Source of the DNA: Microbacterium sp.
GTDB lineage: Bacteria > Actinomycetota > Actinomycetes > Actinomycetales > Microbacteriaceae
Reading direction: 5' to 3'
Assembly (NCBI RefSeq): GCF_029263575.1
Contig: NZ_JAJUFV010000006.1
Location: forward strand, 1 to 43,790
Length of the DNA stretch: 43,790 nt
Positions 650 through 2,430 of this stretch are shown here, one piece after another. The stretch's first letter is position 1. Each line of letters begins with the position of its first letter. Position numbers and translations under genes: made by a program. Under the pieces are notes generated by a model. That model saw only the letters and a program-made list of their open reading frames with translations, was not told where the DNA came from and ran no database searches.

Positions 650-1150
650 GTGAGCGAGTACACCGTCCGCCCGGCGCGCAGCGCCGACATCCTTGGCATC
701 CACCACCTGCTGGAGCCGCTGGTGGAGCGACGCATCCTGCTCGGCAAGGACCTCGCGGTGCTCTACGGCGCGGTGCAGGAATTCGTCGTCGCCGAGTGGG
801 ACGGACAGCTGATCGGATGCGGCGCGCTGCACGTGATGTGGGAAGACCTGGGCGAGGTGCGCACCCTCATTGTGCGCGACGACTGGCTGCGCCGCGGTGT
901 CGGGCGCCAGATCGTCGATGCGCTTGAGGCGCGCGCCAGAGAGCTGGGCCTGCGGCGCCTGTTCTGCCTCACGTTCGAGATGGATTTCTTCACCCGGCGC
1001 GGCTTCGCGCCCATCGGCGAGCAGGTCGTCGACCCCGACGTGTACTCGCAGCTGCTGCGCAGCCCGGACGAGGGCGTCGCCGAGTTCCTCAACCTCGCGC
1101 ACGTCAAACCCAACACACTCGGCAACACACGGATGCTGAAGAACCTGTGA
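650..1150 (+). CDS. GNAT-family amino-acid N-acetyltransferase (ArgA-like N-acetylglutamate synthase)
   Basis: 166 aa, GTG start; EVRTLIVRDDWLRRGVGRQIVDALEARARELGL acetyl-CoA binding region; CLTFEMDFFTRRGF; leaderless -10 TACGCT 6 nt before start. Confidence 0.8.
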   Translation: MSEYTVRPARSADILGIHHLLEPLVERRILLGKDLAVLYGAVQEFVVAEWDGQLIGCGALHVMWEDLGEVRTLIVRDDWLRRGVGRQIVDALEARARELGLRRLFCLTFEMDFFTRRGFAPIGEQVVDPDVYSQLLRSPDEGVAEFLNLAHVKPNTLGNTRMLKNL

Positions 1151-1806
1151 TGACAGCGCGTCGCCGCACTGCCGCGAAATATCGTCGTCGTCGCATCGTC
1201 GTCTTCGGCGGGTTGATCGTGCTGGTCGCAGCCATCGCGGTGGGAATCTGGCTGGTCATCGCCCAGCCCTGGGCGGATGCCGCGGCCAAGGCCCCGTCCA
1301 CGCCAGCGCCGACCGCATCCGACACGCCGTCACCCGAGCCGTCGGAAAGCGACAGTCCCTCACCGGAGCCGACAGAGGAAGCGGAGTCGGGGAAACCCGC
1401 GCCCTGCGAGGCGCGTGATCTCACCATCGAGGCGGTGACGAATGCTGACACCTACGCGGCCGGTGAGCTTCCTGAACTGTCGATCTCACTGACCAACAAG
1501 GGACCGGCGGATTGCACGCTCGATGTCGGCTCGGCCACGCAGACCTTCACGGTGTCGAGCGGATCCGACATCTGGTGGCGTTCGACCGATTGCCAAGAGA
1601 ACCCGAGCAGCATGGTCGTGACTCTCGCGGCCGGCCAGACCGTGCTGAGTGCGGCGCCCGTGGTCTGGGATCGCACCCGCTCGAGCGTCGACACCTGCGA
1701 CCAAGACAATCGTCCCCGAGCGCCCGGCGGTGGCGCCTCGTATCACGTCGCCGTGTCGATCGGCGGTTTCGATGGGCCCGTCACGCGGCAGATCCTGCTG
1801 TACTGA
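1150..1806 (+). CDS. Membrane-anchored hypothetical protein, Pro/Ser/Thr/Glu-rich linker plus extracytoplasmic domain
   Basis: ATG overlaps previous stop (ATGA); N-terminal TM helix; APSTPAPTASDTPSPEPSESDSPSPEPTEE linker. Confidence 0.75.
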   Translation: MTARRRTAAKYRRRRIVVFGGLIVLVAAIAVGIWLVIAQPWADAAAKAPSTPAPTASDTPSPEPSESDSPSPEPTEEAESGKPAPCEARDLTIEAVTNADTYAAGELPELSISLTNKGPADCTLDVGSATQTFTVSSGSDIWWRSTDCQENPSSMVVTLAAGQTVLSAAPVVWDRTRSSVDTCDQDNRPRAPGGGASYHVAVSIGGFDGPVTRQILLY

Positions 1807-1830: not shown

Positions 1831-1859
1831 CTGACACACGCGGGCCTTTGGGATACCAT
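1831..1859 (+). promoter_or_regulatory. Predicted housekeeping-sigma promoter of the ncRNA candidate
   Basis: CTGACA (1831-1836) - 17 bp - TACCAT (1854-1859); predicted +1 at about 1865-1866. Confidence 0.5.
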
Positions 1860-1864
1860 TAAGC

Positions 1865-2000
1865 AACTCTCGAGATTCTCGGTGGAAGCCATCCCCAGTG
1901 GCGTCGAATTCAGCGTCCCCAGCGCATCGACAATCACCGTTCGAGAGTTCGAGGGCCCTTTCGAGTACTTCAGTCCCCAATGGAGAACTCGAGAGGGCCC
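1865..2000 (+). ncRNA. Candidate structured small RNA: three-way junction plus terminal hairpin, three UCCCCA loops
   Basis: P1 AACUCUCGA(1865-1873)/UCGAGAGUU(1941-1949) plus CGGUG(1880-1884)/CACCG(1935-1939); P2 GCCA-UCCCCAG-UGGC (1888-1902); P3 GUCGA..GCG-UCCCCAG-CGC.UCGAC (1903-1931); P4 GGGCCCUUUCGAGU..CUUCA-GUCCCCAA-UGGAG..ACUCGAGAGGGCCC (1953-2000). Confidence 0.55.
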
Positions 2001-2019
2001 CAATTGTTAGGCTGTGCCA

Positions 2020-2430
2020 ATGGCATCGAAGAAGTCAAAGCGCAAGAAGCCGGCGCCGGAGGAGTTCCGTTCTGAGGCTCTTGCGCAGGCGCTCGAGAAG
2101 CAGGACATGGCGGCGGTCGCCCTCGCGCTGCGCCACGGCACGACGGTTGTTCCGCTCATCAGTCCGGGCTCTCGCGACAACCCGCTCGACAGCGGTGAAG
2201 TCTGGACCTACCGCGATCCGGCATCCGGCGATGTGGCCCTTCTGCTGTTCAGCGACGCGAAGAACAAGCCGGCCAACCTGCCCCCGGGCGTCGGTATCTA
2301 TTCCGCGGCCTGGCTGCGCTCGTTTCTGACCACGCATCGCGATACCATCACCACGGTTTTTCTGGACATCGCGGGCCCGCACCCCATGCAGGCTCCGCCG
2401 GACGAGTTGCTCAAAGCGCTCGACGCCTGA
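2020..2430 (+). CDS. SseB-family protein
   Basis: 136 aa from ATG 2020 (MASKKSKRKK...); TFRD/GDVALLLFSDAKNKPANLPPGVGIYSAAWLRSFL resembles SseB; leaderless -10 TAGGCT 6 nt upstream. Confidence 0.65.
   Translation: MASKKSKRKKPAPEEFRSEALAQALEKQDMAAVALALRHGTTVVPLISPGSRDNPLDSGEVWTYRDPASGDVALLLFSDAKNKPANLPPGVGIYSAAWLRSFLTTHRDTITTVFLDIAGPHPMQAPPDELLKALDA

Follow-up and report, generated by a model that had tools for sequence, protein, structure and literature searches.

In Xanthomonas, the small RNA sX13 has three stable stems, each with a C-rich loop at its apex, represses targets that carry GGGG near their translation starts, and is Hfq-independent (PMC3771888). The LhrC1-5 RNAs of Listeria are encoded in multiple copies and have three redundant UCCC sites, of which one is placed in the loop of the terminator and one in a single-stranded stretch (PMC4132741). 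In B11/6C, two C-rich loops act against a G tract in a 5' UTR (PMC10470900), and the ANTAR-target RNAs are composed of two hairpins with hexaloops that have A at position 1 and G at position 4 (PMC8164766). Here, we describe an RNA that is a previously undescribed family of a known functional kind, specific to Microbacterium. The existence of this family is close to certain, and no published description of it was found in the open-access literature.

The window, i.e., the whole stretch of 43,790 nt from Microbacterium sp. that was analyzed, contains a gap of 213 nt (1807-2019) between a DUF4232-like gene and a gene for a 136-aa protein. A preliminary description of this DNA had read the gap as a complete RNA gene, with its own promoter, a helix P1 enclosing two hairpins, and a third hairpin downstream, and upon reading the sequence, every named element, loops included, was found where it had been placed (Table 1). 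The putative promoter is built from CTGACA at 1831-1836, a 17-nt spacer, and TACCAT at 1854-1859; it was the sole sigma-70-like match in the 1.2 kb between 1500 and 2700, where shuffled sequences averaged 0.2 matches, and the stretch GCTGACA...TGGGATACCATT was conserved among the relatives that we call class A below. The fold also came out as described: for the plus strand, RNAfold gave this structure as both the MFE and the centroid (z -4.07), and none of 200 shuffles was equally stable. P1 encloses hairpins 1 and 2 and is followed by hairpin 3, with an outer stem of 14 bp that includes one G-U pair. The P1 strands (1865-1949) and hairpin 3 (1953-2000) have CTCTCGAG-type palindromes in common, so that an alternative fold is possible, with the 5' strand of P1 paired to the 3' side of hairpin 3.

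Table 1. Positions in the window of the small RNA gene, its parts, and the neighboring genes.
Feature	Position	Strand	Basis and remarks
Small RNA gene	1865-2008	+	Inferred transcript of ~140 nt; fold z -4.07; covariance-model matches
Promoter CTGACA-17-TACCAT	1831-1859	+	Promoter search; conserved in class A relatives
Helix P1, 5' strand AACTCTCGA	1865-1873	+	Fold; all 9 pairs changed on both sides
Helix P1, 3' strand TCGAGAGTT	1941-1949	+	Pairs with 1865-1873; fold, covariation
Inner P1 extension, 5' strand CGGUG (DNA CGGTG)	1880-1884	+	Fold; all 6 pairs of the helix changed on both sides
Inner P1 extension, 3' strand CACCG	1935-1939	+	Fold, covariation
Hairpin 1	1888-1902	+	Loop UCCCCAG at 1892-1898; fold, covariation
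Hairpin 2	1903-1931	+	Loop UCCCCAG at 1916-1922; fold, covariation
Hairpin 3, terminator hairpin	1953-2000	+	Loop GUCCCCAA at 1973-1980; fold, covariation, family-wide T-rich 3' tail
Amino-acid N-acetyltransferase (argA type) gene, synteny marker	650-1150	+	NF005921, 234 bits
DUF4232-like secreted protein gene, upstream	1147-1806	+	21.3 bits, below the Pfam cut-off of 27; conserved synteny
Conserved 136-aa protein gene, downstream	2020-2430	+	ATG at 2020; no Pfam or NCBIfam assignment
TAGGCT, -10 box of the 136-aa gene	2008-2013	+	6 nt before the ATG; leaderless start

The minus strand showed no excess of fold stability over chance (z -0.80), and a minus-strand reading with CsrA-like GGGGA loops was rejected for this reason and because the promoter and the tail are on the plus strand. 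All three plus frames are open across the RNA element of the window; a protein-coding reading was rejected, since length differences of single bases occur between copies and the paired positions covary.

A DNA search of 58 genomes identified the element in 10 other Microbacterium genomes at 82-86% identity; the match spanned almost the whole element in 9 of these, and several of the 10 had second sites that match hairpin 3 alone. The paralogues sit at fixed syntenic sites, which we separated into classes A and B, plus a class C for other places. A covariance model built from 12 site-A copies (R1) detected the RNA in 69 of 119 Microbacterium genomes, and a second one built from 82 copies (R2) in 81 of 118, corresponding to about two thirds of the species sampled, with up to three copies per genome; the window itself was matched at 1863-2001, with 148 and 137 bits, respectively. 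Because hairpin 3 is nearly palindromic, the models also gave matches on the other strand of the element, which are artefacts. Outside the genus, R2 gave no match in 84 other genera of Microbacteriaceae (300 genomes), and R1 none in 198 genomes of the order. The exact hairpin-3 pattern was present in 97 stretches of GTDB genomes, and among the 80 matches listed nearly all were titled Microbacterium, the others being Microbacteriaceae or actinomycete assemblies not given a genus name, plus a single short contig titled Stenotrophomonas, which is probably contamination. The RNA had been presented as unannotated, and in agreement no Rfam family matched positions 1780-2040, either at the gathering score or at E<=5.

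The preliminary description had also staked its case on the stems and the UCCCCA loops being conserved and covarying in relatives, and both were observed. In an alignment of 81 distinct copies, which was fitted to the structure and thus favors it, though the margin is large, paired cells amounted to 89.6% (shuffles, 71.2%), compensatory changes on both sides were seen in 43 of the 47 base pairs, the cells with such changes numbered 625 (shuffles, 170; slid controls, no more than 119), and the covariation score was 0.473 (shuffles, 0.169; slid controls, no more than 0.073). P1 still pairs in the site-B copies despite having no evident sequence similarity to the site-A P1. The loops behaved in the opposite way to the stems, CCCCA being kept while nearly every stem was rewritten: this 5-mer fell inside a hairpin loop in 241 of its 284 occurrences, against 9.4% for all 5-mers, and exactly three CCCC loops were present in 72 of 87 elements. 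The commonest loop cores were GUCCCCAGC, GUCCCCAAU, and AUCCCCAGU, and most copies had U before CCCC and G or A after CCCCA. The U-G closing position was found in 66 of 78 sequences for hairpin 1 and in 49 of 66 for hairpin 2, when other stem pairs vary freely, and the loop of hairpin 3 was conserved.

In nearly every copy with P1 found, a TANNNT hexamer ended 2-9 nt before the first P1 base, mostly 4-7 nt; the chance of this hexamer at a spacing of 3-9 nt from random positions is 0.008. In the 10 nt after hairpin 3, the mean number of T was 4.3 in class A, 3.7 in class B, and 4.3 in class C, when the background is 1.5. Because the -10 spacing is constant and the T-rich tail is present, the copies appear to be complete transcription units that would start at P1 and end at hairpin 3, as expected of the independent RNA, with its own promoter and terminator, that had been proposed. 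The proposal of hairpin 3 as the terminator stands in general, since the T count of the family after this hairpin exceeds background; in the copy of the window, all that comes after the hairpin is CAATTGTT, a weak U-tail.

Class A copies lie in the order argA-type acetyltransferase, DUF4232, RNA, 136-aa gene, and, on the other strand, a gene that we take from its sequence to be radA; the 136-aa protein is presumably SseB-like. A membrane protein gene (2444-2986) is located between the 136-aa gene and radA of the window's genome only, among the class A loci compared. It had been suggested as a local target of the RNA, and this suggestion was not supported, given its restriction to one genome among these loci and a GGGGA that offers just 5 bp. 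Several of the class C copies precede a secreted alpha/beta hydrolase gene or lie close to glmS, with gene names assigned by eye. In class B, the RNA is followed, after about 80-100 nt, by a short RNA, the terminator loop of which is CUCCCCCC, and then by cspA. This short RNA (L034:1130-1205, L022, L142, L150, and others) reads GACGCACCCTCCGGTCGTC...CTCCCCCCG...TTTT and has its own TAGGCT -10 box. In the window's genome, the short RNA of this type scored 28 bits with RF01066, below the gathering score of 47. 6C RNA was reportedly described in Corynebacterium glutamicum by Pahlke et al. in 2016, and in a control search even C. glutamicum scored below the RF01066 cut-off; therefore, 6C-like is a fair label. 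The best RF01066 match in the window's genome (contig C199, 30 bits) was a CCCCA five-base loop beside the tmRNA gene, and it was judged a terminator-like hairpin, not 6C. The same genome has a decayed class B copy (contig C33, ~8924), with a shortened hairpin 3 and loops CUCCCA and UCCCCGA. An analogy with C-rich-loop RNAs such as 6C had been put forward, and the link is stronger than could be seen from the window, because the class B paralogue lies directly upstream of the 6C-like RNA; the RNA itself is not a 6C RNA, as it has no RF01066 match and its loops are CCCCA, not at least six C.

The transcription-unit layout, fold, UCCCCA loops, paralogy, and fixed sites are established by comparative sequence evidence, and with moderate confidence we read the element as a stand-alone, trans-acting sRNA of ~140 nt, the loops of which would pair with G-rich translation-initiation regions and exert translational control. 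Each loop would display UCCCCA(G/A) in advance, allowing fast pairing with UGGGGA-like stretches near ribosome-binding sites, and this pairing would block the translation of several mRNAs, with three loops providing redundancy or holding more than one target. A point against this reading is that the CCCCA core does not complement GGAGG, the canonical Shine-Dalgarno core. To look for targets, TGGGGA-N5-9-ATG was counted relative to AGGGGT-N5-9-ATG in 25 carriers, 16 non-carrier congeners, and 9 other genera. TGGGGA before ATG was not enriched in carriers, with medians of 1.01 in carriers and 1.19 in non-carriers (p 0.37) in a blunt test that a small target set would escape, and the pooled ratios were 1.06 in carriers, 1.10 in non-carrier congeners, and 0.98 in other genera, an equally blunt figure that leaves room for a handful of targets.

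The main rival to trans-acting pairing is a protein-binding RNA, the three UCCCCA(G) loops of which would be identical sites for capturing or titrating a putative protein partner (e.g., one with a KH domain, or a cold-shock protein), in the way that CsrB handles CsrA. The identical loops with conserved flanking U and G are what is expected of a recognition motif, and class B copies precede cspA; however, a 7-nt loop maintained for pairing with RNA would just as well be closed by U-G or U-A, and we know of no such protein for C-rich hairpin loops in Actinobacteria. We thus regard protein binding as possible, if somewhat unlikely.

Two further readings involve a palindrome, TGTCCCCC-N4-GGGGGACA (or its GAGGGGACA form), which was found once or twice per genome in 12 Microbacterium genomes (e.g., L142:1501-1520, L144, L146, L150). 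Among its 15 sites, 5 immediately precede the 6C-like promoter of class B loci, 4 immediately precede the class A promoter, and 6 are elsewhere. The palindrome has T before and A after it, and because these flanks are the reverse of those of a terminator, it is more likely to be an operator, as judged from sequence, of what would be a very small regulon. In genomes with no copy of the RNA (G024 and G007; L152 and L156, ~1300-1750), the palindrome is close to a promoter of the TACCAT type and to one more stretch able to form a hairpin, which may represent a different unannotated RNA. In one of these readings, the RNA would represent a new multivalent class of bacterial RNA, the three identical UCCCCAG loops of which dock a putative actinobacterial RNA-binding protein or chaperone, within a small regulon under a shared palindromic operator that also drives the 6C-like RNA; we consider it unlikely. 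In the other, a circuit of C-rich sRNAs, the paralogues would be co-regulated with the 6C-like RNA and compete with it for G-rich mRNAs or a chaperone. The tandem arrangement in class B and the 9 of 15 rare palindrome sites at a 6C-like or class A promoter are consistent with such a circuit, but this is an association in sequence, the palindrome is missing at the window's own class A copy, and the other 6 sites lie elsewhere, so that we find the circuit quite doubtful.

It is very improbable that the RNA is a cis-acting leader or attenuator of the 136-aa gene, even though class A copies are 17 to ~300 nt upstream of this gene and in the same orientation. In 60 of 62 class A loci, the 136-aa gene has a -10 box of its own, a TANNNT located 5-8 nt ahead of its start, and in genomes that do not carry the RNA (e.g., L120, L121, L133, L139) the gene follows the upstream gene after a short gap and has the same kind of box; inspection by eye and fold of site A in such congeners revealed a short gap with no triple C-loop element. 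Since the gene has this box with or without the RNA, the latter is an added unit, not a leader. Moreover, class B and C copies precede different genes, and hairpin 3 is a terminator. A MITE- or REP-like element, whether mobile or simply a palindromic repeat, which several copies per genome and the near-palindromic hairpin 3 could suggest, is already refuted by the fixed syntenic sites across species with few copies per genome, the promoter at constant spacing, and the covariation across the multibranch fold, and no match to the element was found in phage and plasmid collections.

Few regulatory RNAs have been characterized in high-GC Gram-positives outside mycobacteria, corynebacteria, and streptomycetes, and most Actinobacteria, to our knowledge, have no Hfq. 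An RNA that is genus-wide, paralogous, and strongly covarying, with the same recognition loop three times over and one copy beside a 6C-like RNA, would offer a tractable system in which to learn how sRNAs with C-rich loops reach their targets in the absence of Hfq, and the family would merit a new Rfam entry. When compared with described systems, it resembles the ANTAR-target RNAs in being actinobacterial and having two adjacent small hairpins, but its loops are UCCCCAG and it has P1 and a third hairpin in addition, so it is not an ANTAR-target RNA. A CsrA sponge of the CsrB/RsmY type, with GGA in the loops, was likewise discarded, since the plus-strand loops are UCCCCA and the minus strand, with GGGGA, folds no better than chance. 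The RNA shares with LhrC the multiple copies and three redundant C-rich sites, including one in the terminator loop, whereas LhrC has a site in a single-stranded stretch, another architecture, and another lineage, and no sequence relation was seen; common descent was rejected, as no Rfam family matches and the RNA was found in one genus only. As in sX13, three hairpins each show a C-rich loop; sX13, however, is from another phylum with no homology shown and has no described enclosing helix, whereas here a long P1 encloses two hairpins and there are up to three paralogues per genome. Membership in 6C (RF01066) was rejected, since the whole-genome search with this family matched other places only; in 6C, about six C in a row occupy the loop of each of two stem-loops, in contrast to three CCCCA loops and a multibranch P1. 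Nevertheless, both are actinobacterial RNAs with C-rich loops, the G-rich regions proposed as targets here would parallel the G tracts in 5' UTRs targeted by 6C/B11, and a 6C-like RNA is the direct neighbor of the class B copies.
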